From: Candidatus Schekmanbacteria bacterium
GTDB taxonomy: Bacteria > Schekmanbacteria > GWA2-38-11 > J061
Reading direction: 5' to 3'
Length of the DNA stretch: 64,000 bases
NCBI GenBank assembly: GCA_016219965.1
Contig: JACRJM010000003.1
Span: 194,299 to 258,298 of the forward strand
Shown here piece by piece: positions 12,663 through 35,750 of this stretch; position 1 is the stretch's first letter; every line of letters begins with the position of its first letter. Both the position numbers and the translations under genes were made by a program. Below the pieces are notes generated by a model. The model was not told the origin of the DNA. It searched no databases and worked only from the letters and a program-made list of their open reading frames with translations.

Positions 12663-14534
12663 ATGACATATCTCGAACAATCCATAGAGAAAGGCTACGC
12701 CACTATCGCCGGTGAAGGGACAAAACAACGAATCACCTATGTTGCTGTTAATCATTCCGAGCGTTTCTCTGACCCAGAGGAGCAAGTCCGCGCCGAATAC
12801 TGGGCTGAGCTTATCTTCCGATACGGCTACGAACCCGCCCGCATCGGCGTTGAAATCACTGTCCCAGATCGCACACCTAAGGACGCTGCAGATCTTGTCG
12901 TCTTCATCGATGATGCCCGCACTCGCCCCTTTGCGGTTATCGAGTGCAAGCGTGATGGTGTCACCGACGCTGAATTCGCACAAGCAGTTGAACAGGCCTG
13001 TGGTAACGGAACATGGGCTAAATTCCGCGCCCCATATGTCGGCGTTGTCGCTGGCCAGACCCGCCGATTCCTGGACTTTTCAGAAAAATATGGCGTGCTC
13101 GAACGCGAGGCCAACATCATCGCCGACCTGCCCCGCCAGTATGGCAAACCCGAGGAATGGCGCTTCCGCAAAGGCACGAAGGACGATATTCAATCCGTTA
13201 ACAAGGAAACTCTGATTGCCACAATCAAGAAATGCCATCAAACCCTATGGGGCGGTGGACGCCTTTCGCCTCCAATGGCATTCGGCGAACTCTGTAAGCT
13301 CCTCTTCGTAAAAATTCAAGACGAAAAGACCCCGCGCAAGAACGGGCAACCCTACGAATTTCAGATCAAGACGCACGAGCCAAGTCGTAAACTTGCAGAA
13401 CGTATCAAGCTAATCTATGAGCAAGCCAAGGTGAAAGACCCGCAAGTATTCACCGACACCATCCGCATCGACGATGCCACACTTCGCACCCTAGTATCAC
13501 ATATGGAAGGTGTCAGCTTCAGTAAGACTGACCTCGACACCAAGGGTGTCGCATTTGAGCAGTTCATGGACGGTTTTTTTAAGGGCGACTTCGGTCAGTA
13601 TTTCACGCCTCGTGAAATAATCGCCTTTGCCGTTGAGGTAATGCTCGACGAGCGCGACCATCGAGGGCGCAAACTCCCACAAAACGAAAAATTTATTCTT
13701 GATCCTGCCTGTGGCTCCGGCGGCTTCCTGCTCCATGCACTGGACCATCTTCGCAGAGAGGCCGATGAATACTATTCAGATCAGAAGGGTGATCCACAGC
13801 GCGGAATTGACGAAGGAAAAGATCACTACAAACACTGGCACGACTTTGCTGAAAAACGGCTCTACGGAATTGAGATCAACGACGAAATCGCTAGAGTCGC
13901 GAAGATGAACATGATCTTGCACGATGACGGACACAGCAACGTCATCGGTGTTGATGCCCTGGATCGGTTCGGCGGCATCCTCCAGCGCACAGGAAACAAA
14001 GGATTCACAGAAGGTGTCTTTGACCTGATCCTGACCAATCCCCCCTTCGGCGCACAAATCAACCTCACCGAGCGCCCCTACTTGCCAGATTTTGATCTCG
14101 GCAACCAGGAAGACTCCAAAGGGAAGAGGAGGCCTCGCAAGAATCAAAAAACAGAAATCCTCTTCATTGAGCGCGTGTGGCAATTCCTTAAACCAGGCAT
14201 AGGCCGCGCAGCCATCGTACTACCTGACGGCATTTTGACCAACTCTTCGTTGCAATACGTTCGTGACTTTCTCATTGAACGCTTCCAAGTTCTCGCGGTT
14301 GTTAGCCTTCCGCAGACAGCCTTCGCCCACTTTGGAGCTGGTGTCAAAGCCAGTCTTGTGTTCCTGCGCCGCCGCGCTGAAGGAGAGAAACCTAGGGATG
14401 ATGAAGCCATCTTCATGGCTGCGCCCGAAAAAATCGGCTACGATGCTACTGGACGAAAGTGCGAGAACCAACTGCCAGAGGTGGCGCAACAATACCAAGC
14501 GTTCTGCAAGAATCCAGAACCTTTTTTCGTCTAA
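12663..14534 (+). CDS. BcgI-like restriction nuclease-methyltransferase fusion (RM subunit)
   Basis: A 623-residue protein. The N-terminal domain has a PD-(D/E)XK core (D77, then E94-C-K96 in AVIECKRDG), like the HsdR N-terminal nuclease fold. The rest is an HsdM-like N6-adenine methylase, with a helical HsdM N-domain, motif I DPACGSGGF near 345 and motif IV NPPFG near 458. There is no helicase domain. One chain with nuclease plus methylase beside a separate specificity gene matches type IIB enzymes such as BcgI (A subunit of similar size) rather than classical type I. The gene is richer in G+C than its neighbours, suggesting transfer. An AAGGAG site precedes the ATG. Confidence 0.85.
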   Translation: MTYLEQSIEKGYATIAGEGTKQRITYVAVNHSERFSDPEEQVRAEYWAELIFRYGYEPARIGVEITVPDRTPKDAADLVVFIDDARTRPFAVIECKRDGVTDAEFAQAVEQACGNGTWAKFRAPYVGVVAGQTRRFLDFSEKYGVLEREANIIADLPRQYGKPEEWRFRKGTKDDIQSVNKETLIATIKKCHQTLWGGGRLSPPMAFGELCKLLFVKIQDEKTPRKNGQPYEFQIKTHEPSRKLAERIKLIYEQAKVKDPQVFTDTIRIDDATLRTLVSHMEGVSFSKTDLDTKGVAFEQFMDGFFKGDFGQYFTPREIIAFAVEVMLDERDHRGRKLPQNEKFILDPACGSGGFLLHALDHLRREADEYYSDQKGDPQRGIDEGKDHYKHWHDFAEKRLYGIEINDEIARVAKMNMILHDDGHSNVIGVDALDRFGGILQRTGNKGFTEGVFDLILTNPPFGAQINLTERPYLPDFDLGNQEDSKGKRRPRKNQKTEILFIERVWQFLKPGIGRAAIVLPDGILTNSSLQYVRDFLIERFQVLAVVSLPQTAFAHFGAGVKASLVFLRRRAEGEKPRDDEAIFMAAPEKIGYDATGRKCENQLPEVAQQYQAFCKNPEPFFV

Positions 14535-15148
14535 GCCCTGCTGAGTCAGGCAAAGCCCTGTGCTTTGCCGTCAAGCGGGGCGAAATAGCAAGACTGGATG
14601 TAAACTTCTTTCAACATCGACCAAGCATACGTTCTTTCTGCTTCCCATGTTTGAGCATGAAAGACGCTTGCGATAAGGTATTTCAAGGTGTTGGACGTGC
14701 TCTTATCGAAGAATCCGATACTATTCTTTTAAAGGTTAAGAACATTAAAGGATTTGACGGTATCGATTTTGAAGATATTGAGTTTCATGAAAATCCGATT
14801 GCAGCAAAACTTCTGCAAAAGGGAGACATCGTAACTGCCTTTATTGGCGAAGCAATGAAACTCCATTCCTTCTCATTGTTCGTGGGGGCAGAATATAAAT
14901 GTACAGTTGACAATAACTGTGGTGTTTTTCGTCCAAATGTAGACCGGGTGATCCCACATTTTCTATATTATGCCCTTCAAACAATATGGGTTCGCGAGCA
15001 GTTTGTTCAGCTTATCGGTGGTGGCGGAGTTCCTTTTCTTGGGTCAGCAAATGCAGAAAAGTTATGGACGGTAATTCCTGAAGATAAGCGTGTTCAGCGG
15101 GATATGGTGATGGAGATGGAGCGGGCACGGAAGATGCCGGCAGCGTAA
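14459..15148 (+). pseudogene. specificity subunit, N-terminal half (frameshifted)
   Basis: Encodes the first target-recognition domain of a type I/IIB specificity protein: CFAVKRGEIARLDVNFF, then LLQKGDIVTAFIGE, NCGVFRPN and PHFLYYALQ, ending in the conserved helix (RVQRDMVMEMERAR). The frame then hits TAA after KMPAA. Deleting one C at 15137-15138 would continue the helix as RQRKLTKAYALLAELD in the frame of the second half, so one gene appears split by a +1 frameshift. The real start is unclear: the frame runs back into the methylase gene without a good ATG, and recognisable homology begins near 14560. Confidence 0.8.
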
Positions 15149-15227
15149 ACTGACAAAGGCCTATGCACTTCTCGCAGAGCTCGACTCCTTCCTTCTTGAC
15201 AAACTTGGCCTCAGCCAAACGAAAACC

Positions 15228-15944
15228 TTGTTTCCTCGATACTACTCTGCAAGACTCAAAGAATCATGGGCTCGTTGCGATCCAGATTACCACTCTCCAA
15301 AATTCAAAGAACTACGCCTAGGCATTGAGAACTCACACTATCCGGTTTATGACCTTGGAATCCTTGCTCCGAATCCCAGAACTGGATTCGCCGCAGGTCG
15401 AGAAGTTCAATCTTTCAACGAAGATGAAGGCATCCCACATGTTCGCCCATTGAACATTACGCAGCATGGAGAAATCACATTTGAAGGCACAAAACTTGTT
15501 CCGCACAACACAGTGCGCTCGAATGACAAACTCCAACCAGGCGAAGTTTTGCTTAATAACACTAACTCTACGGAATGGGTCGGCAAAACAACCGTCTTCG
15601 AGGGGCAGCGAGAATGCTGTTGCTCGAATCACATAACGCGCTTGACACCAGATCTTTCGCTAGTTCTACCGTGGTTTTTAGCAGCGCTTCTCAACGCCAT
15701 GCGTTCAACAGGTTTTCTGGGCCTATTGGCAACAAACTTTGTTAATCAAGCCGGAATCAACACGGAAACTCTGTGTTCGCTTCGTCTCCCGATTCCCTTG
15801 CTACCTCAACAGAAAGAAATAGTTGCCGAGTTGACACGCCGTCGTCTGGAAGCCAGACGTTTGCGTGAGGCGTCGGAGCAAGAATGGGAAGAGGCCAAGG
15901 CACGGTTCGAGGCACGGTTGCTGGGATGTGAAGGAGCGCAATGA
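15228..15944 (+). pseudogene. specificity subunit, C-terminal half (frameshifted)
   Basis: The same protein continues in the +1 frame from about 15139 (KLTKAYALLAELD, then FLLDKLGLSQTK). It carries the second target-recognition domain (RLKESWARCDPDYHSPKF, FNEDEGIPHVRPLNIT, GEVLLNNTNS, ATNFVNQAGINTETL) and the final conserved helix (PLLPQQKEIVAELTRRR). The span listed starts at the first plausible start codon, TTG; on its own it would lack the first recognition domain. Whether the split is a sequencing error, phase variation or true loss decides whether the system is active. It overlaps the next gene by 4 bases. Confidence 0.8.
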
Positions 15945-22356: not shown

Positions 22357-22402
22357 TTATGGTAATCAGGGATGTACGGTTAACAGTAAAACAGGGAATT
22401 AC

Positions 22403-22753
22403 GTGAAACAAATAATTTTATACAGATGCCAGAATTGCGGCGGTGTGGAAAAAAAGATAGATCTTCCTTATGTACGCGAATTCGTGTTGAGCTGCTCGGG
22501 TCAGCTTGAAGCGATTCATATATTGCGGGCTTTTGAAGATGGAGAGCAGGGCGTTTGTATTGGTATCTGCGATACTACCCGATGCAAAACCCTCGAAGGA
22601 AGCGCGCGGGCATTGCGGAGAATAAAGCTTGCCGAGCATTTGCTTATGGAAGCTGGTATCGATAAAAAAAGGCTTATGACAATCCGGTATGAACCGGGCA
22701 GAGATATTAAAAAGGAATTATCTGATTTCCATGCACTTTTACAGGGAGCATGA
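22403..22753 (+). CDS. MvhD/FrhD-like hydrogenase iron-sulphur subunit
   Basis: A 116-residue protein that starts at GTG (AGGGA site upstream) and opens with QIILYRCQNCGG. The conserved cysteine cluster is GVCIGICDTTRCKTLEGSA (about 65-80), as in MvhD, which carries a [2Fe-2S] cluster and hands electrons between hydrogenase and HdrA in methanogens. Here it precedes MetV/MetF, the layout seen in some acetogens (MvhD-MetVF with Hdr). No hydrogenase or HdrA gene lies next to it, so its electron partner may be one of the ferredoxin/FMN proteins downstream. This is inference. Confidence 0.8.
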   Translation: MKQIILYRCQNCGGVEKKIDLPYVREFVLSCSGQLEAIHILRAFEDGEQGVCIGICDTTRCKTLEGSARALRRIKLAEHLLMEAGIDKKRLMTIRYEPGRDIKKELSDFHALLQGA

Positions 22754-22796
22754 TCAGGTAACCGGTCATATTAACTTATAAAAAGGAAACTCTAAC

Positions 22797-23462
22797 ATGA
22801 TAGTCGCACAAAGAAAGCCATTACAGGAAATCATCGAAAAACTGGAAAAACACAAAAAAGTCCTGATTGCCGGCTGTGCCACCTGCGTTGCTGAATGCCG
22901 TTCCGGCGGGCAAAAAGAAGTTGAACTGCTGGCAAGCCAGTTGCGGATCGCATTTGCTGATAAAAAGATTTCCATCAAAATTTCAGAATGCTGCATAGAA
23001 AGGCAATGCGAGCCGGAAATGATCGAAGAACACGCTCAAAAAGTATTGGAGCAGGATGTGGTGCTTTCTATAGCATGCGGTGTGGGAGTGCAGGAAATGT
23101 CCCTGCGGTTTGCGGACATCACCATACTTCCCGGATTGAACACCACATTTATGGGCACGCATGCCAAGCAAAACTCCTGGGAAGAGCGCTGCGGCGGTTG
23201 TGGTAACTGCATCCTCGATTTAACCATGGGTATTTGCCCGATAGCCCGCTGCAGCAAAAGCCTTCTCAATGGACCCTGCGGCGGCACCCATGACGGAAAA
23301 TGCGAAATATCAGAAGATACACCCTGTGCGTGGGCATTGATTGTAGAACGGCACAAGGAAAAGGGAAAACTGGAGCAGATGGAAAGCATAATCCCACCTA
23401 AAGACTGGTCAACGTCCAGAGACGGAGGACCAAGGGTGCTTGCGAGGGAGGAATTAGAATAA
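22797..23462 (+). CDS. metV: MetV-type methylene-THF reductase partner (zinc/Fe-S protein)
   Basis: A 221-residue protein. The N-terminal half has GCATCVAECRSGGQKE, ACGVGVQ and a cysteine-rich arrangement; the C-terminal half carries the methylene-tetrahydrofolate reductase C-terminal signature (SWEERCGGCGNCILDLT, CPIARCSKSLLNGPCGG, C..SEDTPCAW). In acetogens MetV binds MetF and supplies electrons to its flavin. It is 43 bases after the MvhD-like gene and its stop overlaps the metF start by one base (TAATG). Confidence 0.88.
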   Translation: MIVAQRKPLQEIIEKLEKHKKVLIAGCATCVAECRSGGQKEVELLASQLRIAFADKKISIKISECCIERQCEPEMIEEHAQKVLEQDVVLSIACGVGVQEMSLRFADITILPGLNTTFMGTHAKQNSWEERCGGCGNCILDLTMGICPIARCSKSLLNGPCGGTHDGKCEISEDTPCAWALIVERHKEKGKLEQMESIIPPKDWSTSRDGGPRVLAREELE

Positions 23463-24400
23463 TGAAATCAGGCAGCAGGCTGGAGAAAATACTGGAGCAG
23501 GGCAATTTTGCAGTCACCGCAGAATTGGGGCCGCCCATGAGCGCAGATGCAGAGGTTATTGCAAAAAAAGCGGCAATCCTCAATGGAACGGCAGATGCTT
23601 TTAATGTAACAGACAACCAGACAGCGGTTGTACGCATGTCATCGATAGCAGCCTCGGCAATCTGCGTAAAAGAGGGTATTGAACCTATCATGCAGATGGT
23701 TTGCAGGGACAGGAACCGGATTGCCATGCAGAGCGACATACTCGGGGCCGTGGCACTTGGAATCCGTAATTGCCTTTGTCTTTCGGGCGACCACCAGTCT
23801 TTTGGAAGAGCCGGAAAGCTTCTTGGACATCCCGGAGCTAAAAACGTGTACGATGTTGATTCCATCAACCTGATAAGCATCCTGCGTACCATGCGGGACG
23901 AACATAAACAGCAGGGAGGCGACCCGATTAAAAGCGATGTGCCGCTCTTTATAGGAGCAGCGTGGACACCTCTGGGAGATCCTGTTGATTTTAGGGTAAT
24001 CCGTCTTGGAAAGAAGATACAGGCAGGCGCAGATTTTGTGCAGACGCAGGGAATTTATGATGTTGAACGCTTTAGCGATGCAATGAAAAAAGCCAGGGAA
24101 AAAGGGTTTCATGAAAAGACCGCTATCCTTGCTGGTATCATAGTTCCTAAAAGCGCGGGTATGTTGAATTACATGAACACAAGTGTCGCCGGTGTTTCGG
24201 TGCCGGAAAAGATGATCCAGCGTATGAGCCAGGCTGAAAACCCAAAAGAGGAAGGCATAAAAATCACCATTGAATTGATAAATGAAATCCGCAAAATTGA
24301 GGGTGTGCGGGGCGTGCACATTCAGCCGATCGAATGGGAAACGGCCATGCAGGAAATTTCCGGCAAGGCGAACCTGCTTCCCCGCCCGGAGACAGCCTGA
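23462..24400 (+). CDS. metF: methylenetetrahydrofolate reductase
   Basis: A 312-residue TIM-barrel flavoprotein. It begins FAVTAELGPPMSADAEVIAKKA, has the catalytic-region stretch CRDRNRIAMQSD, the CLSGDHQ motif, and ends with RGVHIQPIEWE. It reduces 5,10-methylene-THF to 5-methyl-THF. Partnered with MetV and an MvhD-like protein, it is likely the acetogen-type, ferredoxin- or complex-linked enzyme rather than the NADH-dependent E. coli type. The stop overlaps the next ATG by one base. Confidence 0.92.
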   Translation: MKSGSRLEKILEQGNFAVTAELGPPMSADAEVIAKKAAILNGTADAFNVTDNQTAVVRMSSIAASAICVKEGIEPIMQMVCRDRNRIAMQSDILGAVALGIRNCLCLSGDHQSFGRAGKLLGHPGAKNVYDVDSINLISILRTMRDEHKQQGGDPIKSDVPLFIGAAWTPLGDPVDFRVIRLGKKIQAGADFVQTQGIYDVERFSDAMKKAREKGFHEKTAILAGIIVPKSAGMLNYMNTSVAGVSVPEKMIQRMSQAENPKEEGIKITIELINEIRKIEGVRGVHIQPIEWETAMQEISGKANLLPRPETA

Positions 24401-25779
24401 TGCCGGAAAAATATCATATCCATGCGGAACCTGCTGAACCGCGATATCAACCTGTATTCAAACTAAGTTCAACCGAAAGAGACCAGTGCTTAGGCTGTAA
24501 TGATTGCGCCAAGCGAAACTGCATTTACGACGTTTATAAAAAAAGGGAGTTTTTGTCATCTGAACTTGTGGATTCGTCCGGCAGTTTTTGCAAATCGTGC
24601 ATGCGCTGCGTTCAGGAATGCAAAAACAACATCCTGTCAAAATTATTGAATCCTGAGTATACCCAAATTGGAAACAGTTACTGGACCCCGGCCATACTTA
24701 CTTCTCTCTGGCAGCAGGCGCATGCAGGTAAAATTCCCGTTTCAGGAGCAGGATACGACGGCCCTTTTTCCGGCACAGGATTCGACGATATGTGGACTGA
24801 TATGTCCGAAATCGTCAGGCCCACCCGCGATGGCATACATGGCCGTGAATACATCAGCACATCCATTGATATTGGCACAAAATTAGACCGGTTGCATTTT
24901 AATGGTCAGGAACTGGCAGACGACCTTCCTCCTATGTTCTCTTTACCACTGCCGATTATTTTCGATGTGCCCAGGCAGGCTGGTACATGGCGCGGGGTGA
25001 AGCAGGCTGTGCAGCAGGCAGCCCGGAAACTTCAAACCCTCGCATTTTGCGACGACAGGGAGAGCACCGGTTCTCACATTATTCCACGCTACAGTATTAA
25101 CGAGAAAATAGAGCCTGATAATTCCAGCAAAATGATAGAAATATTTCTTGAATCCTGTGAAGGACAGTTAATTGATAAAGCGGAAAAGCTTGCCGGAGAG
25201 ATTTCTAAAAGCAAACCGGGGCTTGTAATATGCATTGGCCTTCCTATTTCAAAGAATACAGCTCAAACTGTTGTAAAGCTTGCAAAGAATAAAATAGGAA
25301 CTTTTCATCTTTATGCAAATCACAGCGGCAGAGGAACAGGCTCCGATTCAGATTATTTCATAAAGGAAATAGTCAGAGAAACGCACCGGGGGCTCCTTGC
25401 CGAATCGATAAGGGATTGCGTTACCATTCTGGCGGGAGGAGGAATTGCCATGGCCGAGCATGTGGCAAAACTGATCGCTTGCGGTGCAGATGGAGTTGTC
25501 GTTGACAATGCGCTGCTTGTAGCCCTGGAATGCAGGATGTGCCTTGAATGCCTGGAAGAAGAACCCTGCCACGTGCATATCGATGCGATAGATCCTCAAT
25601 GGGGAACCAAAAGAATCGTAAACCTTCTTGCATCGTGGCATTCACAACTGATTGAGGTTATGGGCGCTATGGGCCTTCGCGAAGTGCGAAGGTTAAGAGG
25701 GGAAACCGGCCGGGTAATGTTTTTCAGGGACCTGGAAGAAGAATGTTATGCACCGATATTCGGAAAGAGAGTATGGTAA
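24400..25779 (+). CDS. degenerate ferredoxin/glutamate-synthase-like protein
   Basis: A 459-residue protein with two N-terminal 4Fe-4S motifs (C30-C33-C36-C41 and C64-C67-C70-C74), a linker, and a C-terminal stretch homologous to the end of the glutamate synthase FMN barrel (ILAGGGIAMAEHVAKLIACGADGVV, then CRMCLECLEEEPC, a 3Fe-4S-like motif). It lacks the GGMSFGSIS and QGAKPG FMN/substrate motifs that its paralogue 25773-27254 keeps. It is probably an electron-carrying partner rather than an active synthase. The start overlaps metF by one base and the stop overlaps the next start. Confidence 0.75.
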   Translation: MPEKYHIHAEPAEPRYQPVFKLSSTERDQCLGCNDCAKRNCIYDVYKKREFLSSELVDSSGSFCKSCMRCVQECKNNILSKLLNPEYTQIGNSYWTPAILTSLWQQAHAGKIPVSGAGYDGPFSGTGFDDMWTDMSEIVRPTRDGIHGREYISTSIDIGTKLDRLHFNGQELADDLPPMFSLPLPIIFDVPRQAGTWRGVKQAVQQAARKLQTLAFCDDRESTGSHIIPRYSINEKIEPDNSSKMIEIFLESCEGQLIDKAEKLAGEISKSKPGLVICIGLPISKNTAQTVVKLAKNKIGTFHLYANHSGRGTGSDSDYFIKEIVRETHRGLLAESIRDCVTILAGGGIAMAEHVAKLIACGADGVVVDNALLVALECRMCLECLEEEPCHVHIDAIDPQWGTKRIVNLLASWHSQLIEVMGAMGLREVRRLRGETGRVMFFRDLEEECYAPIFGKRVW

Positions 25780-27254
25780 ACATCATAAAAACCCCATCCC
25801 GTTTTAAAAACCGCATCGGCAAATTCGCCGTTCACCGGTCCGAGCGCTGCACAAGCTGCGGGAAATGTGTAACAGTATGTCCTTACAGCGTATTTGTAAA
25901 AGCAGGGGATAAAATGCTGCGCCCTAAATCCTACTTGTGCTCAGGTTTAAAGTGCGCGGAGTCGGAAAAAGGCTGTGTAAAAAACTGCCCTGCAGGCGCC
26001 CTTTCAGTTGCAGTCAATCCAAATTATAAAGTATTGGGTGATTACCGTTGGACGCCAGACCTTATTGTCTCCACCTGGTACCAGGCTGAAACAGGCGAAT
26101 TACCCTATATGGAAATTGAGTCCGACAGCGGGAATTCCGGCGGCGGATTGGATAGGATAAGGATAAAAGCGCGGCCGAAGGAATCAATAGATCCTAAAAA
26201 AGTCGATATGCGGATCAACCTTAATAAAAGAAACGACGGCCGGCCAAGCCTCATTATAGATATGCCCATTTACGGGGGCGGAATGTCATTCGGTTCCATA
26301 AGCGAAAGCACCATGATCGGCCGCGCCAAAAACGCAGCCGCATGGAACACCCTTACCTGCACAGGCGAAGGAGGGTATCCCGAGGCCCTTCACCCGTACG
26401 ATAATCATGTTATTACACAGGTTGCAACCGGGCTTTTTGGGGTAAGAGAAGAAACCATCCAGCGGGTACGCATGGTGGAATTCAAATATGCGCAGGGTGC
26501 AAAACCGGGTCTCGGCGGACACCTCCTTGGAGACAAAGTCACCGAAGCGGTCGCAAGAATGCGCGAGTCCGTCAAAGGAAACCCGCTTTTTTCTCCTTTT
26601 CCTTTTCATTCGGTCTATTCAATTGAAGACCACAAGAAACATGTGGACTGGATCAAGCACATAAACCCAAAAACTCTGGTTTCCACCAAAGTATCAACGC
26701 CTACAGATGTAGAAATGGTAGCCGTGGGCAGTTATTATGCCGGAGCGCATGTCATTCATATAGACGGAAGCTATGGCGGCACCGGTGCAGCACCGGAAAT
26801 TGCTAAAAAAAATATCGCCATGCCTATAGATTATGCCATAAATAAAACTCACCGTTTTCTGACGCAGGAAGGCATAAGAGATAAAATAACGCTTATCGCC
26901 TCAGGAGGATTAAGAACCGCACATGATATTTTCAAGGCAATCGCCCTGGGTGCAGACGGTGTTGTAATAGGCACTTCAGAAATGGTCGCACTGGAATGCC
27001 TGCGCTGTAAAAACTGTGAGAGCGGACGCGGATGTGCGCGCGGGATTGCAACCACAGACCCATTATTAGGCGTTATGTTCAGCGTTGATTGGGCTTTTCA
27101 GCGGATGTATAATTTATATGCTTCCTTCGATAAGCAGTTGAGGAAACTTGTCGCTGCGGCAGGCTGCAGCTCAGTTACAGAGGTTGTCGGGCGGACAGAG
27201 CTGCTGCTGCACCTTGACTATGAAAACAATGAAAACAAGGATAAAGATGGATAA
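25773..27254 (+). CDS. FMN-binding glutamate synthase core with ferredoxin domain
   Basis: A 493-residue protein. N-terminal cysteine motifs (CTSCGKCVTVCPY, CSGLKCAESEKGCVKNC) form ferredoxin-like clusters. The barrel shows IYGGGMSFGSISE, CTGEGGYPE, QGAKPGLGGH, GSYGGTGAAP and the 3Fe-4S motif CLRCKNCESGRGC. It matches archaeal-type GltB/GlxD, which condenses ammonia with 2-oxoglutarate to glutamate, or methylamine in N-methylglutamate synthase. ATG 25773 overlaps the preceding stop; an earlier in-frame start (25743) is possible. It pairs with the fused 27247-29850 protein. Confidence 0.88.
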   Translation: MVNIIKTPSRFKNRIGKFAVHRSERCTSCGKCVTVCPYSVFVKAGDKMLRPKSYLCSGLKCAESEKGCVKNCPAGALSVAVNPNYKVLGDYRWTPDLIVSTWYQAETGELPYMEIESDSGNSGGGLDRIRIKARPKESIDPKKVDMRINLNKRNDGRPSLIIDMPIYGGGMSFGSISESTMIGRAKNAAAWNTLTCTGEGGYPEALHPYDNHVITQVATGLFGVREETIQRVRMVEFKYAQGAKPGLGGHLLGDKVTEAVARMRESVKGNPLFSPFPFHSVYSIEDHKKHVDWIKHINPKTLVSTKVSTPTDVEMVAVGSYYAGAHVIHIDGSYGGTGAAPEIAKKNIAMPIDYAINKTHRFLTQEGIRDKITLIASGGLRTAHDIFKAIALGADGVVIGTSEMVALECLRCKNCESGRGCARGIATTDPLLGVMFSVDWAFQRMYNLYASFDKQLRKLVAAAGCSSVTEVVGRTELLLHLDYENNENKDKDG

Positions 27255-29850
27255 TTTTTCTGATACCATACAAAGGTCCCGTGCCCTGCTTCCAGCCCAT
27301 GCACATAATAATGCGGAAGAAAAACCGGCGCAGGAAGGCGGGTGCGGAGTCGTAGGCTTTGCCGCAAACGTTAAAATAAGCGGTCGTCATATCTTTGAGC
27401 CTTCCTGCCAGATGCATAACAGAGGCAATGGCAAAGGCGGGGGTATTGCCGCCGCCGGACTTGATGCCCGGTATTTTGGAATTTCACAAGAGATGCTGGA
27501 TTCGTGTTATCTGCTTAATGTTGCCTACATGGATAGCGGCATTGTAAAGGAGCTTGAAAGCAGTTTTATTAACCCCCATTTTGATATTCATCACATTCAT
27601 CAAATGCCAACAGTGAAAGATTTTAACGCCCTGGGTCTGGAGACAAAACCCCCGGATGTAAAACAATATTTCGTCCGTGTAAAAAAAGACGTTTTAAGCA
27701 AGTTCTCAAAACCCTTTGCAAAGGCAGCTCATCGCGACATTGAAGATGAATTCGTTTGGCAGAATTCATTTAAAATAAACCAGAAATACTACGCTTCGCT
27801 TGGAGATAAAAAGGCGTTCGTTCTTTCGCATGCCAGGAATTTAATGATCATGAAAATAGTGGGCTATGCAGAAAACGTGGTAAAGTATTACCAGCTCGAA
27901 GATATGCAGGCACATATATGGATCGCACACCAGCGCTACCCGACCAAGGGGCGGGTCTGGCATCCAGGAGGAGCGCATCCTTTTATTGGAATGAACGAGG
28001 CACTTGTACATAACGGTGATTTTGCAAACTATCATTCCGTGTCCGAATACCTTAAAGAACGTAACATGATACCCCAGTTTTTAACGGATACCGAGGTTTC
28101 GGTCATGATATTTGACCTGTGGAACCGCGTTTATAAATATCCAATGGAATACATTATTGAAGCGCTTGCTCCCACCACTGAGCTTGATTTTGACCGGCTT
28201 CCAAAAGAAAAACAAAAAATTTACGCAGCCATTCAGGCCATGCACATTCACGCCTCCCCGGATGGTCCGTGGTTTTTTATAATAGCCAGAAGCCAGCCCG
28301 ATGCAAACGAATACCAGCTTTTGGGAATAACAGATACATCCATGCTGAGGCCCCAGGTGTTCGCCCTTTCCGAAGGAAAGGTGCAAATAGGTTTATGCGC
28401 TTCCGAAAAAAAGGCTATTGACGCGGCTTTGGGAAGTATTTCAAAAGAAGACAGCAGATTCAGACCCATTGCCGACAAATATTGGAACGCCCGGGGCGGC
28501 AGTCACGCAGACGGCGGAGCGTTTGTTTTTAAAGTAAAACCAAACGGCGCAGAAGGTGAATTGCGCTGTTTTAATAAATTCGGGCATGAGGTAAAAGCTG
28601 ATCCCGAAAAAATTGCGTGTAATTTTTCTGAAAATTTTGCCAGCGCCGGCACCATTGCCGAAGGCGATGAAATAAAACGGCTTTTAGAAAATGGCAGCGC
28701 GCCGGAGCTTTTTACATTAATTTCCGGCAAAATATCTGAATGCGATTATATGAAGCTGCGCTGGTATATAGACCATATCGTTTCTCACGGAAGCGGCAGA
28801 AACACTGCTTCTGCCATTGAGACGCTCACCCTGCTCAATGATATGAAATATGATAATGGACATAAAAAGAGAAGCTCTGTTTTGCAGATAATCCGTTCCG
28901 GCATCGATTCTTTACTGCACAATACACCTTCTATTGCTGAAAAAAAATCCGGCAATTCTGAATATTGCAGAATCACCTATGCAACCAAAGATCTGTTAAG
29001 GCCTCCTGCAGCAGGCGAGAAAATCCTTGTTGTAGATGCCGCCGAGTTTGAGCCTGAAGGGGAAAACTGCGATTCCACACTTGCGGTAAAATCATATACC
29101 TTAGGGTGGAAGCATTTTGTGGTGTTTAACCTTAAAGGGCAAAGGTTTCATGGCTGCGGATTCGGTCCCGGCTCCCATGAAATCCGCATGGATCTCTACG
29201 GCAGTTCAGGGGACTACGCGGGCAGCGGCATGGACGGATGCCAATTATATATCCATGGCGATGCCCAGGACCAGCTTGGGCAGATACTTAAAGACGGAAA
29301 TTTGGTCGTCTACGGAAGCGTGGGACAAACATTCATGTACGGGGCAAAAGGCGGAAAGGTTTTTATTATGGGAAATGCTGCAGGCCGCCCATTGATTAAT
29401 GCCGTAGGACGTCCCAGGGTTGTGATTAACGGAACCTGTCTTGATTTTCTCGCGGAATCATTTATGGCGGGCGATGCCCTAAACGGCGGGGGTTTTGCTA
29501 TTGTCAATGGAATTGAGTTTGACCAAAAAGGCGCTTTACGTGAATTATCGTTGCCCTATCCCGGTTCAAACCTTTTTTCTCTGGCTTCCGGCGGGGCGCT
29601 TTATATCCGTGATCCGAAAAATACAATTGTTGAGCAGCAGTTAAACGGCGGAACAATCGTTAAATTGAAAAAAGCCGATTGGGACGTTATTGCGCCATAT
29701 CTGGATGAGAATGAAGAATTATTCAAAATAAAAGTTTCGGATTTACTTACCGTAGATGGCAAAAGGCTGCCTCCGGAAGACGTTTACAGGAAAATAATGC
29801 CCATCCAGGCCGAGGTCCTTGCCAGTGAAATGGCTGATGAAGAAGAATAG
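27247..29850 (+). CDS. fused class II glutaminase - GXGXG protein (GlxB-GlxC fusion)
   Basis: An 867-residue fusion. The N-terminal half is a class II glutamine amidotransferase: C33 in GGCGVVGF, RYPTKG, VHNGDFANY and LTDTEVSV match the catalytic layout of glutamate synthase glutaminases, with a 32-residue propeptide. The C-terminal part (about 635-760) is the GXGXG beta-helix (YGSSGDYAGSGMDG, GDAQDQLGQ, YGAKGGKVFIMG). In cluster B these two domains are separate genes. It supplies ammonia to the FMN core. A middle region (about 430-620) between the domains is not assigned. An AAGGA site precedes ATG 27247, 8 bases inside the previous gene. Confidence 0.88.
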   Translation: MDNFSDTIQRSRALLPAHAHNNAEEKPAQEGGCGVVGFAANVKISGRHIFEPSCQMHNRGNGKGGGIAAAGLDARYFGISQEMLDSCYLLNVAYMDSGIVKELESSFINPHFDIHHIHQMPTVKDFNALGLETKPPDVKQYFVRVKKDVLSKFSKPFAKAAHRDIEDEFVWQNSFKINQKYYASLGDKKAFVLSHARNLMIMKIVGYAENVVKYYQLEDMQAHIWIAHQRYPTKGRVWHPGGAHPFIGMNEALVHNGDFANYHSVSEYLKERNMIPQFLTDTEVSVMIFDLWNRVYKYPMEYIIEALAPTTELDFDRLPKEKQKIYAAIQAMHIHASPDGPWFFIIARSQPDANEYQLLGITDTSMLRPQVFALSEGKVQIGLCASEKKAIDAALGSISKEDSRFRPIADKYWNARGGSHADGGAFVFKVKPNGAEGELRCFNKFGHEVKADPEKIACNFSENFASAGTIAEGDEIKRLLENGSAPELFTLISGKISECDYMKLRWYIDHIVSHGSGRNTASAIETLTLLNDMKYDNGHKKRSSVLQIIRSGIDSLLHNTPSIAEKKSGNSEYCRITYATKDLLRPPAAGEKILVVDAAEFEPEGENCDSTLAVKSYTLGWKHFVVFNLKGQRFHGCGFGPGSHEIRMDLYGSSGDYAGSGMDGCQLYIHGDAQDQLGQILKDGNLVVYGSVGQTFMYGAKGGKVFIMGNAAGRPLINAVGRPRVVINGTCLDFLAESFMAGDALNGGGFAIVNGIEFDQKGALRELSLPYPGSNLFSLASGGALYIRDPKNTIVEQQLNGGTIVKLKKADWDVIAPYLDENEELFKIKVSDLLTVDGKRLPPEDVYRKIMPIQAEVLASEMADEEE

Positions 29851-30928: not shown

Positions 30929-31744
30929 TTAATAGGCGTAGAGCCTTCCGTAAGGGCGATGGCTTACTGGTATAATTTTAAGAAAAGGTTTGGACATGAT
31001 ATTCTCATAATCAAGATCCAGATCTGCGGCATACTCTTTCAGTAGTTTCTCAAGTTCTTTCATGTCAGCATCTGTCATGTCAACAATGCCGACCTCTTTT
31101 CCAAGTTTCTTCTTATTTACTTCGCCGCGAACATAGATGATCCCGCCATGCATTCCTGTCCCGAGATAATCTCCAACTATTGGTCTTTCATCTTCTTCTT
31201 CAAGACCAAGAAGTACCAGTATTCCTCCTGCCATATATTCGCCGAAGAAATCCCCTGCATTGCCGCCAGCCACTATATATGACATTCTCTCCTTGTATGC
31301 TTTCATGTGGATTCCTACCCTGTAGCCCACATCACCCTTGATGAATATCTTGCCGCCCCTCATTCCGTAGCCGATTACATCGCTCGCCTGACCATGCACA
31401 ACTATCTTGCCAAGACTCATCGTGTTGCCCACTGCATCCTGCACATTGTCATTTACTATTATGGTTGGACCGCTCATGAAAGCGCCAAGGTCGTTTCCGG
31501 GGACACCATTTATTATTATGGTAGCTTCCTTTTCTATGGCATCGCCGATATAGCGCTGTCCGTTTACATTATCAAGCTCAACAATATTATAATCCTTATT
31601 TAAAATGGCATCACGCACCATCTCATTAAGTTCTTTGTAATAAATATCATGGGCGTCAATTACTAATTTTTTTTCGTCCATTTTAGCGGGATTTCCCCTC
31701 ACGGTTAGTTTCTTGTTAAGCCGAGTAGTTAAGTTTCCTTCCAT
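30929..31744 (-). CDS. GXGXG subunit of archaeal-type glutamate synthase (GlxC-like)
   Basis: A 271-residue right-handed beta-helix protein with repeated glycine motifs (GAFMSGPTIIVNDNVQD, YGMRGGKIFIKGDVGYRVG, EYMAGGILVLLG, GTGMHGGIIYVRG). In the archaeal-type synthases (and MgsB of N-methylglutamate synthase) this is a separate subunit, as here. It follows the FMN gene by 25 bases. The ATG at 31744 gives a normal N-terminus. Confidence 0.9.
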   Translation of the reverse strand: MEGNLTTRLNKKLTVRGNPAKMDEKKLVIDAHDIYYKELNEMVRDAILNKDYNIVELDNVNGQRYIGDAIEKEATIIINGVPGNDLGAFMSGPTIIVNDNVQDAVGNTMSLGKIVVHGQASDVIGYGMRGGKIFIKGDVGYRVGIHMKAYKERMSYIVAGGNAGDFFGEYMAGGILVLLGLEEEDERPIVGDYLGTGMHGGIIYVRGEVNKKKLGKEVGIVDMTDADMKELEKLLKEYAADLDLDYENIMSKPFLKIIPVSHRPYGRLYAY

Positions 31745-31769
31745 TTTACACTATACTCCTATTTACTTA

Positions 31770-33275
31770 TTATTTCCCTGCCGCTTTTACGGCAAGTATA
31801 TCAAGGGTCTGCGAATCAAGCCCTATGCCCCTCAACCTTTCCCTGCTTCCACGCAGAGATTCAATTGCGTTAAGCCCCAGGCTTCCAAGCACTTCTTTTA
31901 TCTCAAGACTCCATGCCCTCAAAAGATTTATCAGTCTCTCTGCAGCTATTTCAGGGTCAAGCCTTCTGGTAAGCTCTGGTCTCTGCGTTGCAATACCCCA
32001 TGCGCATCTTCCCATATGGCATGTCTGGCAGACGCGGCATCCAATGGCTATGAGCGCCCCTGTTCCTATGGCCACAGCATCAGCGCCGAGGGCAATTGCT
32101 TTAATCGCATCGGCAGCCGAGCGTATGCTTCCTGCCGCGATAAGCGAAGCATGGTTTCTTATACCTTCCTGTCTAAGCCTGTCGTCAACTGAAGCCAGGG
32201 CAAGCTCAAGGGGTATTCCAACATGGTCCCTTACTATCCTTGGCGCAGCACCGGTGCCGCCCCTGAAACCGTCAAGATAGACGATATCTGCTCCTGCCCT
32301 TACTACGCCACTTGCGATGGCAGCAATATTATGGACTGTCGCTATCTTTACAGAAACCGGCTTGTAGCCTGTTGCTTCCTTGATTGCGAATATAAGCTGT
32401 CTTAAATCCTCTATGGAATATATGTCGTGGTGCGGGGCAGGCGAAAGCGCATCGGTCCCCATCGGAATCATACGGGTCTTTGAGATATCTAGACCTACCT
32501 TTTCACCCGGCAGATGGCCGCCTATTCCGGGCTTTGCACCCTGACCGATTTTTATGTCAACCGCAATACCCCTTTTGAGGTAATCGGCATGGACGCCAAA
32601 CCTTCCGGATGCGCACTGCGTTATTGTATATTGTCCGTAGTCATAAAGTTCTTCATGGAGCCCGCCTTCACCGGTATGCATGACTGTCCCCATTTCTTTT
32701 GCAGCCATTGCCATTGCCTTATGGGAGTTAAGACTTATAGCTCCATAGGACATAGGCGCAAAGACGATTGGGATTTCAAGTTTTAAATTCTTTGGCGGTT
32801 TCTCTTTGAGCTTAAGTTTTCCGTCAGGTGTTTCAACAAACTCAAGTGAGTCAGGTTTTTTCCCAAGATAGGTCCTGAGTTCCATGGGCTCCCTTAACGG
32901 GTCGATTGACGGGTTAGTGACCTGGCAGGCATCGAGAACAAGATGGTCAAATATGATCTCATAGGGGAGATCGTTGCCCATCCCTGTTAAAAGTATGGAG
33001 CCTGTTTCAGCCTGCTTCCATATATCGAGGCGGTGCCTGTCTGTCCAGTTGGCACTTCCCTTGAAATCAGTCGGGTTTTTCCTTACGGTTATTACCTGTT
33101 CCGGGCAGTATACGACACACCTGTGGCAGGCAACGCACTTGAAATTATCAGGCACGACTTTGTTTTCAAAGCTTAATGCTTCATAACTGCAGTTCATAAC
33201 GCAGCGTTTGCATCTGCGGCAGTTTGTATGCTCTATGTCAACTACGAATTCCGGTATGAGGTAGCTTCTTCTCAT
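31770..33275 (-). CDS. FMN-binding glutamate synthase core (GlxD-like)
   Basis: A 501-residue protein with two N-terminal 4Fe-4S motifs (CRRCKRCVMNC, CVACHRCVVYC), then the synthase barrel with FAPMSYGAISLNSHKA, HTGEGGLHEE, GQGAKPGIGGH, DGFRGGTGAAP and the 3Fe-4S motif CRVCQTCHMGRC. All catalytic motifs appear intact. It fits the glutamate synthase or N-methylglutamate synthase catalytic subunit. Its paralogue in cluster A (25773-27254) diverges mostly outside these motifs, indicating ancient duplication or separate acquisition. Confidence 0.92.
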   Translation of the reverse strand: MRRSYLIPEFVVDIEHTNCRRCKRCVMNCSYEALSFENKVVPDNFKCVACHRCVVYCPEQVITVRKNPTDFKGSANWTDRHRLDIWKQAETGSILLTGMGNDLPYEIIFDHLVLDACQVTNPSIDPLREPMELRTYLGKKPDSLEFVETPDGKLKLKEKPPKNLKLEIPIVFAPMSYGAISLNSHKAMAMAAKEMGTVMHTGEGGLHEELYDYGQYTITQCASGRFGVHADYLKRGIAVDIKIGQGAKPGIGGHLPGEKVGLDISKTRMIPMGTDALSPAPHHDIYSIEDLRQLIFAIKEATGYKPVSVKIATVHNIAAIASGVVRAGADIVYLDGFRGGTGAAPRIVRDHVGIPLELALASVDDRLRQEGIRNHASLIAAGSIRSAADAIKAIALGADAVAIGTGALIAIGCRVCQTCHMGRCAWGIATQRPELTRRLDPEIAAERLINLLRAWSLEIKEVLGSLGLNAIESLRGSRERLRGIGLDSQTLDILAVKAAGK

Positions 33276-33294
33276 TATTAATCTTCTCTTTCAG

Positions 33295-34389
33295 CTAAAT
33301 GTTCTTATTGTCAAGGTTCACGATCACAGGCTCACCTGCCCTTGGATACCAGACTTTTGCAGGTTTCGCACATATCTCCCTTATCGAGGATTCCTCAGAC
33401 GCCATGTAAACCCTGTCGTCCTTTTCAGCTACCACGAGGGGGCGAAGCTTTATCCTGTCGCTCAGCCCTATTAGACCATTGCTGTGTCCAAAAAGTATGG
33501 AGAAAGGCCCGTTAAGAAGGGCGCTTCCGTAAACCATTCTTATCGATGTGAGGGCTTCCTTTTCATCTTCAGGCATATCATCTATATCCTTCCAGAATGG
33601 AGCGGCAACAGCTTTGCAGGCTGTCTTAAAGGGCATCCCATGCCTTCTTATCATTAGGTCAAAAATATAGGCTATAACTTCGGTGTCAGTTAAGAGTGTG
33701 CATCTGTAGCCAAACATCTCGAGGTATCTCTTGTTTATCCCGTAGGATGAAATCTCGCCATTATGGACTATTGACCAGTCAAGAAGAGTGAATGGATGAG
33801 CGCCTCCCCACCATCCCGGAGTATTTGTCGGGAACCTGTTGTGAGCTGTCCATATATATCCCTTGTAATCCTCTATCATGTAGAATTCCGCTATTTCATC
33901 AGGAAATCCTACACCCTTGAATGCGCCCATGTTCTTTCCGCTTGAGAAAACATATGCTCCTTCAATCTCAGAGTTTACCTTCATTACAGTTCTTACTACA
34001 AAATCATCACCCTCAACATCTGCAAATTCCTTGTCCGGGCGTCCGCTCTTGGGTTTCACAAAGTAGCGGTAGAGCATTGGATGATAAACTATGTACTTTG
34101 TTTTCTGATGAGGGATACGTTCATGCTTTGCAACTTCATAGTTTGATTCAAGGAATTCCTCGGTGAGTTCCCTTGCAGTTCCATGGTCAAACATTATATG
34201 CAGAGCATAGTAATCTTTGTAGTCAGGATATATCCCGTAGGCGGCAAACCCTGCTCCAAGACCGTTCCCCCTGTCCCTCATGGGGCAGATTGATTTTATT
34301 ATCACGCTTCCCGGAACAAGCTCTCCAGACTTGCTTATCAGTCCTGTAAGTCCGCATCCTGAGATGTCTTTCTGGTAATTATGGTTCAT
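33295..34389 (-). CDS. class II glutamine amidotransferase subunit (GlxB-like)
   Basis: A 364-residue protein. The catalytic cysteine is probably C12 (DISGCGLTGLI) after an 11-residue propeptide; AHNRFPTNTPG, SIVHNGEIS and LLTDTEVIAY match the class II fold. It produces ammonia for the FMN core 19 bases downstream. Its start overlaps the stop of the HdrBC-like gene by 4 bases, so all four proteins are translated from one mRNA. Confidence 0.9.
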   Translation of the reverse strand: MNHNYQKDISGCGLTGLISKSGELVPGSVIIKSICPMRDRGNGLGAGFAAYGIYPDYKDYYALHIMFDHGTARELTEEFLESNYEVAKHERIPHQKTKYIVYHPMLYRYFVKPKSGRPDKEFADVEGDDFVVRTVMKVNSEIEGAYVFSSGKNMGAFKGVGFPDEIAEFYMIEDYKGYIWTAHNRFPTNTPGWWGGAHPFTLLDWSIVHNGEISSYGINKRYLEMFGYRCTLLTDTEVIAYIFDLMIRRHGMPFKTACKAVAAPFWKDIDDMPEDEKEALTSIRMVYGSALLNGPFSILFGHSNGLIGLSDRIKLRPLVVAEKDDRVYMASEESSIREICAKPAKVWYPRAGEPVIVNLDNKNI

Positions 34390-35750
34390 AAAACACCTTC
34401 CTGTTTTTCATCTTTTGTCTTCTTTATTGAATCTATCATCTCTTTCCACTGGGTAAACCCGCTCTCAGGCGGATTAGGGAGATTAAGTTTCTTTCTCTGA
34501 GCCATGGACGGCTCTCCGATGCGGCTTGTTTTTGTGAACATCTCAAGCCCCTTCTCTACAGAAGCAGGCCTTATACCCTGTTCTCCCGCCATTTTCTTTA
34601 GTGTCGTGAAGACCTTTTCCATTCCGAATCCCTGCGGACAGAGTTCGGTGCAAGTGTGGCATTCAAGGCATTGCCATATCCTGTGATCATTAACTGCATC
34701 ATCAAGCTTACCTGCAATTACTTTTTCCATAACCGCTTTTGGGTCATAATCTTCCAGAATCCTTGCAGACGGGCAGTCATCAAGACATGCGCCGCATTCA
34801 TAGCACGCCTTCAATGCATCAAGGTCAAAATGCTGCGCTGATTTTCCTGTGCTCTCATCAACCTCGTTCCATCTCTCGAAGAATCTTTCAGTCTTCACCC
34901 TGTGTGATTCTATTCCAAGGTCCTTTGGCTCTATGCCAAGGGTAAGCCCTATGAGCTCGGAGATATAGAAAATCGGTATGCTGAAATCCTCTCCATCCCT
35001 TTGCATCATGAACTGCTGGTTGTCGAGCTGTTTAAAGCAATTGGGACAGGCAACAGCCATGGCATCTACCTCAAGGCTGCGCGTTTCAATAAGTTTCTGC
35101 CTTGTCACGTCAGTTCCTTTTTCTATGTCACCTATATTTGTAAGCTCTCCGCCGCAGCAGAGCATCTTGGCATGATAGTCTATATTTGTACCTCCAAGGG
35201 CTCTTATCAATGAATCAAATTTCTTTGGCACGATCGGGTCATCAAAATCTATGGCGCTGCTCGGTCTTGTCATGTGACAGCCGGGGTGGACTGCGATCTT
35301 AAGTCCGTTCAAACTTCTTTTAATCTGAGATTTGATAACGTCTGCGCCAATTACGTCATGGAACATTTCAACTATATGTTTAACCTCTACTCCGCCCCTG
35401 TATGATAAGTTGACTGAGTTTAATCCATCATTTACTTTTGAAAGAAGAGCCGGGTCGTGGTCGAGATTTTCCTGCACGGTTTTCAATGTGCTGAAACATC
35501 CGTTGCATGCCTGTATAAGCGTAAGGTTTTCCCCTGCGCCTTCTCTTGCCACTGCAAGGTTGCGGGCTGCCGTAAGTGTCCAGACATCTTTGCTCATGTT
35601 GCCCACAAGGGCTTTTTCAGGACAGCAGGTAAAGCCGTTTACATCGCGTATCCTGAAATCAAGCGCATCAAAAACCTTGCGCAAAGATTTTTCTATAAAG
35701 GGAAATCTCGCAGGTATCTGACACCCCCAGAACATTACATTAACAGACAT
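34386..35750 (-). CDS. HdrB-HdrC-like fusion (heterodisulfide reductase-type)
   Basis: A 454-residue fusion with HdrB first. Two CCG-domain cysteine sets (MFWGCQIP..TCCPEK..QACNGCF and HPGCHM..LCCGGE..CPNCF) would hold noncubane [4Fe-4S] clusters. A C-terminal HdrC-like domain follows with two ferredoxin motifs (CYECGACLDDCPS, CLECHTCTELCPQ). In methanogens HdrB reduces a heterodisulfide with electrons passed by HdrC. Here the fusion heads a glutamate synthase operon, with no HdrA, so it probably passes electrons to or from that complex. This is inference. Confidence 0.85.
   Translation of the reverse strand: MSVNVMFWGCQIPARFPFIEKSLRKVFDALDFRIRDVNGFTCCPEKALVGNMSKDVWTLTAARNLAVAREGAGENLTLIQACNGCFSTLKTVQENLDHDPALLSKVNDGLNSVNLSYRGGVEVKHIVEMFHDVIGADVIKSQIKRSLNGLKIAVHPGCHMTRPSSAIDFDDPIVPKKFDSLIRALGGTNIDYHAKMLCCGGELTNIGDIEKGTDVTRQKLIETRSLEVDAMAVACPNCFKQLDNQQFMMQRDGEDFSIPIFYISELIGLTLGIEPKDLGIESHRVKTERFFERWNEVDESTGKSAQHFDLDALKACYECGACLDDCPSARILEDYDPKAVMEKVIAGKLDDAVNDHRIWQCLECHTCTELCPQGFGMEKVFTTLKKMAGEQGIRPASVEKGLEMFTKTSRIGEPSMAQRKKLNLPNPPESGFTQWKEMIDSIKKTKDEKQEGVL

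Follow-up and report, generated by a model that had tools for sequence, protein, structure and literature searches.

A degenerate glutamate synthase barrel as the probable non-catalytic twin in an FlpD-linked gene cluster of a Candidatus Schekmanbacteria bacterium

Overview

The window analysed here is a stretch of 64,000 nt from the genome of a Candidatus Schekmanbacteria bacterium (GCA_016219965.1, JACRJM010000003.1 positions 194,299-258,298, forward strand). It includes a gene, dGlt, for a paralogue of the glutamate synthase (GltS) barrel that lacks the catalytic motifs and carries three sets of four cysteines. From its sequence, dGlt is probably a non-catalytic twin of glutamate synthase. 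We consider it likely, at a probability of about 0.6, that the surrounding cluster codes for an unusually built glutamate synthase, in which dGlt would be a pseudo-barrel standing in for the GltS central domain and an FlpD-like protein would be the electron inlet. The dGlt family is real and conserved, and it is kept beside, and often fused to, an active twin in many anaerobic bacteria. New in this analysis are the proposed nature of the complex, the fusions that occur in nature and the correspondence of dGlt to the GltS central domain.

Features kept and lost in dGlt

Relatives were collected by a contig scan with two seed peptides, one of them WTDMSEI (dGlt residues 132-138). The scan gave at least 586 matching stretches, at least 503 of which encode relatives. 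The comparison set consists of the best 80 of 503 loci and four further loci (84 in total), drawn from many phyla. Identity to dGlt of the window is 42-50% in the best segment for the 80 loci and 47-51% for the other four. The motif alignment holds 84 dGlt rows (one from the window and one from each locus except L036, which has ambiguous bases), 77 rows of P2, the active barrel encoded next to dGlt, and 15 rows of archaeal-type GltB. Rows L038 and L109 carry identical dGlt. Four P2-type sequences (L030, L031, L062_+167 and L117_+1147) and three GltB-like rows (L062, L078 and L117) were omitted from this alignment and from the segment profiles described below. The gene and its conserved elements are as follows.

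24400-25779, +: dGlt, glutamate-synthase-barrel paralogue without catalytic motifs, with three four-cysteine sets, 459 aa
24487-24522, +: cysteine set 1 (C30, C33, C36, C41), present in 84/84 rows
24589-24621, +: cysteine set 2 (C64, C67, C70, C74), present in 84/84 rows
24727-24861, +: near-invariant block, residues 110-154, with 28/45 positions identical in 84/84 rows
25531-25569, +: cysteine set 3 (C378, C381, C384, C390), present in 99% of 84 rows

An earlier note on this DNA had described an open reading frame with three cysteine sets and overlapping ends, and we found its coordinates, sets and overlaps as it gave them. The dGlt ATG (24400) overlaps the stop codon of the preceding gene, MetF (TGATG), and seven bases are shared between the dGlt stop (25779) and the P2 ATG (25773). 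The same note held that GGMSFGSIS and QGAKPG are lost from dGlt and kept in its neighbour. This is borne out across the alignment: neither QGAKPG nor GMS[FY]G occurs in any of the 84 dGlt rows, whereas QGAKPG is found in 77/77 and GGMS[FY]G in 76/77 P2 rows (window included).

The three motifs by which we recognise a catalytic GltS domain for flavin mononucleotide (FMN), GMSxG, GEGG and QGAKPG, are thus all missing from dGlt. The region of QGAKPG is a gap in 99-100% of the dGlt rows, and the Lys/Arg/His stretch that follows it in P2 is gapped as well. The Arg of SGGxR is replaced by Ala in 80% of rows, and at the GT step of the flavin phosphate site Gly is replaced by Asp in 93%. The Pfam Glu_synthase model covers dGlt of the window at residues 325-426 only. 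Alignment with P2 gives 24% identity over 474 columns (E 3e-31). Mean conservation reaches 0.80-1.00 in the ten-residue blocks spanning residues 111-150 but falls to 0.30-0.47 over residues 221-250, midway through the barrel. The invariance of residues 132-138 is partly ascertainment, because WTDMSEI served as a search seed; the seeds did not include the block's 21 other invariant positions.

Retention of a flavin or another cofactor, with catalysis of a second reaction in a remodelled barrel, is improbable. It would account for the phosphate-site residues GG (347-348) and GAD (362-364), which are kept in 86-100% of rows, and for a barrel that is confidently predicted. The Arg and Gly replacements speak against it, as does the loss of GMSFG, GEGG and QGAKPG together with the region that follows. 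Furthermore, conservation is highest in block 110-154 and in the C-terminal part.

Conservation, fusion and selection

Every one of the 85 copies, that of the window and those of the 84 loci, has dGlt in a single open frame. Each of the 84 rows without ambiguous residues reaches at least 85% of the length of dGlt in the window; L036 is the remaining copy. P2 lies 3' of dGlt on the same strand in 83/83 loci that extend at least 1.5 kb from the dGlt start. A gene for an amidotransferase with a GXGXG domain is present in 60/62 loci that extend at least 4.5 kb from that start, and is absent from L083 and L093. In 31 of the 84 loci, three of which end at a contig edge, dGlt and P2 form one open frame. 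At L093:1809-5015, the fused dGlt-P2 frame has an unusually long middle and two P2-like matches.

On a tree that joins the window to 83 loci (84 rows), fusion requires three changes. The unfused dGlt of the window nests in a set of 30 rows, 29 of them fused, on a long branch shared with L056, and its position is for this reason unsure. In a second tree, of 54 rows, 16 sampled dGlt rows from several phyla form one clade (support 100/100) that stands well apart from P2 and archaeal-type GltB. This tree holds four P2-type rows under a 'canon' label (the four omitted from the motif alignment), which leaves the dGlt clade unaffected.

Ratios of nonsynonymous to synonymous substitution (dN/dS) for dGlt are 0.05-0.44 by the Nei-Gojobori method in 17 of the 18 pairs compared, the ones for which the ratio is defined; the pairs were picked by hand as close on the tree, and several share a row. 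dGlt has a higher dN/dS than P2 in 13/13 pairs with values for both. Thus, dGlt is under purifying selection that is looser than that on P2. The earlier note had proposed that dGlt is kept under selection as a non-catalytic partner, to be doubted if relatives showed a frameshift or relaxed selection. Neither was seen, selection on dGlt being only looser than on P2, and the constant adjacency, the fusions, the dN/dS below 1 and the single clade all support the proposal.

A decaying duplicate would have been expected to lose motifs and to evolve faster than its twin, as dGlt does. The low dN/dS, the length kept in every row and the fully supported clade nevertheless make decay exceedingly improbable, and by the same three measures dGlt is ruled out as a pseudogene.

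Structure models and the GltS central domain

The AlphaFold2 model of dGlt from the window (53 rows; mean predicted local distance difference test score, pLDDT, 84.3; predicted template modelling score, pTM, 0.87) is a barrel, predicted with confidence. Searched with Foldseek, it retrieves generic FMN barrels on top, with the best GltS chain at rank 39. With a second aligner the six best rows are GltS alpha chains, matched on their FMN domain (Z 22.6-24.2).

We also modelled a natural dGlt-P2 fusion, that of L041 (974 aa; 58 natural rows, 25 of them fused; pLDDT 84.3, pTM 0.87). Residues 91-972 of this model superpose on residues 448-1184 of the GltS chain 1EA0, with 623 residues aligned at 3.5 Å and Z 30.4 (second aligner only). 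The seven best structure matches of the model are all GltS (Z 26.6-30.4). The borders of the GltS alpha domains, as given in the portion of PMC8097209 available to us, are 1-422 for the glutaminase, 423-780 for the central domain, 781-1202 for the synthase domain and 1203-1472 for the beta-helix. Given these borders, the dGlt half of the model matches the central domain, and the P2 half matches the synthase domain. The stretch 788-1184 of 1EA0 can fit at most 397 residues; at least 226 aligned residues therefore fall on the central domain, if chain order is kept. Among the 43 other match rows of the model, 29 start at residues 114-117, in dGlt, and finish in P2. Like the central domain, dGlt precedes the FMN domain, both in gene order (dGlt-P2 in 83/83 loci) and in fold placement (one natural fusion modelled). 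This place in the fused model goes beyond the earlier note, as does membership of dGlt in an FlpD-linked module, usually with MetV-MetF.

The near-invariant block aligns, weakly, with a particular part of the central domain. In the partial text of the published GltS work at hand, Met479 of the central domain is thought to sit between an iron-sulfur (Fe-S) cluster and FMN. Met479 falls in GSMGDDSP in the PDB sequence of GltS, and this motif was paired with dGlt GAGYxGP by eye and by profile alignment. The part of GltS that pairs with block 110-154 starts at residue 472 and takes in Met479. Profiles of the N-terminal segments match central domain to archaeal-type GltB at 1.4e-13, P2 to archaeal-type GltB at 7.9e-5 and P2 to central domain at 0.005; the canonical FMN domain gave no match to the other N-terminal segments (E 0.05 or more). 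By these scores, with that of the dGlt block against archaeal-type GltB (3.8e-13), the archaeal-type segment is linked both to dGlt and to the central domain; its link to P2 is weaker, and it has none to the canonical FMN domain. pLDDT of residues 111-130 is 63 and 74 in the fusion, compared to 53 and 58 in dGlt alone; with the 29 match rows that start at residues 114-117, this is at most a hint that the block, at its start, lies against the P2 barrel.

A number of observations count against a central-domain role. Behind the GltS chains, other FMN barrels come next in the dGlt search at Z of at most 22.1, so close as to be a tie or nearly one. Residues from about 134 to 149 have pLDDT below 50 in both models, so the block as a whole is not placed, and AlphaFold2 may have learned GltS. 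The Met479 position is mostly Ala in dGlt (78/84). The match between the dGlt and central segments is weak (1.1e-4, probability 56%), and the block is closer to the segments of P2 (5.1e-16) and archaeal-type GltB than to that of the central domain. By hhalign, the dGlt barrel is much closer in sequence to the FMN domain (7.4e-22); against the central domain it scores 3.2e-7, about what P2 reaches there (1.2e-7). The Pfam central-domain model, PF04898, matches 19/53 dGlt rows (E up to 0.01), that of the window not among them, and gave no match in nine dGlt rows listed singly. Four canonical central domains have no invariant Cys in common.

A sequence orthology of dGlt and the GltS central domain is unsupported, the profile being nearer to the FMN domain. 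We therefore claim the same place and fold, and not common descent: by its modelled position, dGlt looks like a stand-alone counterpart of the GltS central domain.

Alternatively, dGlt could be an independent Fe-S adaptor on P2 with no central-domain role, and the superposition would reflect a common way of pairing barrels. The proximity of the barrel sequence to the FMN domain is consistent with such an adaptor, and so is the retention of the cysteine sets while the middle of the barrel drifts. This is nonetheless unlikely, given that a single alignment covers both GltS domains, that the fusions follow the central-FMN order, and that the block has a match in archaeal-type GltB and a weak one in the central domain, whereas the canonical FMN domain has none.

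Partner proteins of the cluster

The cluster comprises six genes on the + strand (22403-29850), in the order FlpD, MetV, MetF, dGlt, P2 and amidotransferase/GXGXG. The five partners of dGlt are as follows.

22403-22753, +: FlpD/MvhD-like adaptor, [2Fe-2S] type by family (Pfam FlpD 2.2e-15 on 22367-22753)
22797-23462, +: MetV, MTHFR C-terminal type, DUF5981 (Pfam DUF5981 1.6e-35)
23462-24400, +: MetF, methylene-tetrahydrofolate reductase (Pfam MTHFR 4.7e-35)
25773-27254, +: P2, FMN/2-oxoglutarate barrel subunit that keeps the GltS motifs and has three Cys sets (Pfam Glu_synthase 9.2e-91)
27247-29850, +: class II glutamine amidotransferase fused to a GXGXG beta-helix domain (Pfam GXGXG 1.4e-13; GATase_6 5.4e-6)

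The GTG start of FlpD at 22403 and the start of the amidotransferase/GXGXG gene at 27247 are putative; the upstream part of the FlpD open frame is unaligned with most relatives. No GltD was found in the cluster of the window, and none of HdrA, HdrB and HdrC is among its six genes.

P2 keeps GMS, the last G of GMSxG, GEGG, QGAKPG, K244 and R264 in 100% of 77 rows. Every motif lost by dGlt is retained in P2 at 96-100%, and the F position of GMSFG is F or Y. We take K244 and R264 to bind 2-oxoglutarate. P2 matches the large chains of GltS in PDB at E 2e-53 and the canonical FMN domain at 5.6e-59 (hhalign). At residues 272-286 (26586-26630), P2 has SPFPFHSVYS where classic GltS has SPPPHHDIYS, each position being conserved in 97% or more of the 77 rows. 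This may be a change near the synthase site of P2.

In the amidotransferase, C33, R230, N256, G257 and D281 are intact in 55/55 rows (window included), presumably as the Cys nucleophile, the Arg, the Asn-Gly pair and the Asp of this enzyme class. Its GATase_6 score, 26.9 bits, is 0.1 bit short of the curated cut-off of 27; the GXGXG domain scores 51.2 bits, above its cut-off of 32.5.

An FlpD-like frame lies within 2.8 kb upstream of dGlt in 54/54 loci with at least 2.5 kb upstream, as found with a profile built from 52 proteins of the same loci in which it was counted; the single sequence from the window finds it in 41/54. The four FlpD cysteines are kept in 51-52/52 rows. Elsewhere in the window, genes at 12663-15944 resemble those for a type I restriction-modification methylase and specificity subunits, judged from translations.

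MetV-MetF and nitrogen genes in the neighbourhood

Among the 54 loci whose upstream flank is 2.5 kb or longer, MetV lies within 2.6 kb upstream of dGlt in 44 and MetF within 1.4 kb in 42. The remaining 12 lack MetF within that distance, a point that counts against the function proposed below. Mapped on the tree, the MetF label changes nine times (75 rows with known state), so the link to MetF has been gained and lost. The constant core, by presence across loci, is FlpD-dGlt-P2-amidotransferase/GXGXG. MetVF would be a frequent, exchangeable physical partner. L039, L098 and L112 have MetV 5' of dGlt but no MetF, which could mean that MetV serves by itself as an electron connector.

Genes for GlnA, PII, Amt or GlnD are present in 21/83 loci, and L036, outside these 83, also has such genes. 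Counted singly among 84 loci, GlnA occurs in 16, PII in 8, Amt in 7 and GlnD in 4. Such genes are found in 9/58 loci with MetF and in 7/12 without it (at least 2.5 kb upstream). The five nitrogen reference genes were checked with Pfam; the counts vary with flank length per locus, have no control and stand without a background rate, which weakens them as support for a nitrogen role.

Proposed function and electron route

The intact glutaminase and FMN motifs, together with GlnA, PII, Amt or GlnD genes at roughly one locus in four, indicate that the module is most likely a glutamate synthase. As read from the sequences, glutamate synthase activity is the most likely activity of the complex. The protein encoded at 27247-29850 would hydrolyse glutamine and supply the beta-helix, and P2 would bind FMN and 2-oxoglutarate and form glutamate. 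dGlt would bind no FMN; it would fill the place of the GltS central domain and join P2 to the amidotransferase.

Electrons would enter through FlpD. The clusters predicted for the cysteine sets of dGlt, with the near-invariant block, may pass them onward to the clusters and FMN of P2. Electron transfer through dGlt is plausible, and we propose it because of the conserved cysteine sets and the weak alignment of the block around Met479. Where MetV-MetF is present, it may dock on the FlpD/dGlt side and share or exchange electrons.

The module could instead supply electrons to MetVF, possibly by bifurcation, with GltS-derived flavin and Fe-S carriers replacing HdrABC, and would then not be a glutamate synthase in vivo. 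The frequency of MetF just upstream fits such a supply, as do the departure of P2 from SPPPHHDIYS and the few MetF loci with nitrogen genes (9/58). The combination of FlpD with MetV-MetF also recalls the type IV MetVF-HdrCBA-MvhD of acetogens, as described in the part of PMC8760232 available to us. The glutaminase residues, needless for an electron carrier, are however intact in every row. The core of FlpD, dGlt, P2 and amidotransferase is kept in most MetF-less loci, and GlnA, PII, Amt or GlnD occurs in 7/12 of these. We give electron supply to MetVF a low chance.

A bolder form of the glutamate synthase reading is a MetVF-FlpD-glutamate synthase supercomplex. A shared Fe-S wire would couple the methylene-/methyl-tetrahydrofolate pair to glutamate synthesis, and dGlt-P2 would preserve a symmetric Fe-S/FMN barrel dimer as a step toward the central and FMN domains. 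This is tentative and somewhat doubtful.

Context in the host genome

The host genome is 3.58 Mb and 98.24% complete. One GlnA match is located about 80 kb away. No match to FTHFS (PF01268) or CdhC (PF03598) was found in this 98.24% complete genome; thus, a Wood-Ljungdahl role of MetVF is unlikely in this host, and we dropped it. A simpler use of MetVF may be production of methyl-tetrahydrofolate for methionine. A second MetV-MetF pair is encoded on another contig (C1, L123:8794-10359, -) with no adjoining glutamate synthase genes. We identified five FlpD matches, that of the window included, and five matches to Fer4_20, a domain of GltD and its relatives.

The window also encodes a second, archaeal-type glutamate synthase (30929-35750, -) of three genes, for GXGXG, an Fe-S/FMN GltB and an amidotransferase. 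We take 31770-33275, with 33295-34389 and 30929-31744, to be an archaeal-type split glutamate synthase with a ferredoxin-domain GltB. Besides this GltB, the host genome yields no near-full GltB match to P2 other than P2 itself. An HdrB-HdrC fusion (34386-35750, -) heads the archaeal-type cluster, so both this cluster and that of dGlt are tied to Hdr/Mvh-type electron proteins.

Significance and comparison with known systems

The physiological electron donor of MetVF-type methylene-tetrahydrofolate reductases is described as unsettled in the portion of PMC8760232 available. A largely open-access literature search gave, in the accessible parts of the sources, no account of GltS-like genes beside MetF or of a GltS pseudo-barrel subunit (PMC9012536, PMC7325909, PMC5736913, PMC2702500, PMC6085437, PMC8097209, PMC8760232, PMC7117923, PMC5113046). 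If our interpretation holds, a gene that is widespread and looks like a damaged glutamate synthase has a role, and an FlpD-linked form of glutamate synthase can be named in anaerobes. MetVF-type reductases would gain a candidate electron partner, and structures could test how the non-catalytic central domain of GltS arose.

The cluster shares with the alpha subunit (GltB) of bacterial NADPH glutamate synthase (1EA0, 6S6S) and with ferredoxin GltS (1OFD) the FMN motifs, the class II amidotransferase, GXGXG and a non-catalytic domain before the FMN domain. Unlike these enzymes, it is made of two or three polypeptides, and the part in the central position has its own Cys sets. The cluster of the window has no GltD, and a gene for FlpD accompanies the GltS-like genes, in most cases together with MetVF. 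Archaeal-type split glutamate synthase likewise has N-terminal Cys sets, a C-terminal Cys set, and amidotransferase and GXGXG outside the barrel gene. Its single barrel gene has all motifs, whereas here a pseudo-barrel accompanies an active barrel and the amidotransferase is fused to GXGXG.

In the type IV methylene-tetrahydrofolate reductase of Moorella, MetVF-HdrCBA-MvhD, an MvhD/FlpD protein, MetV and MetF are also encoded together. In contrast, the cluster of the window is without HdrABC and has GltS subunits in their place. A putative F420-dependent glutamate synthase of anaerobic methanotrophic archaea (ANME) with an FrhB paralogue, as presented in the accessible part of PMC9012536, similarly combines GltS parts with an alternative electron inlet. 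The inlet proposed here is FlpD rather than FrhB, and that part of the source describes no pseudo-barrel such as dGlt.

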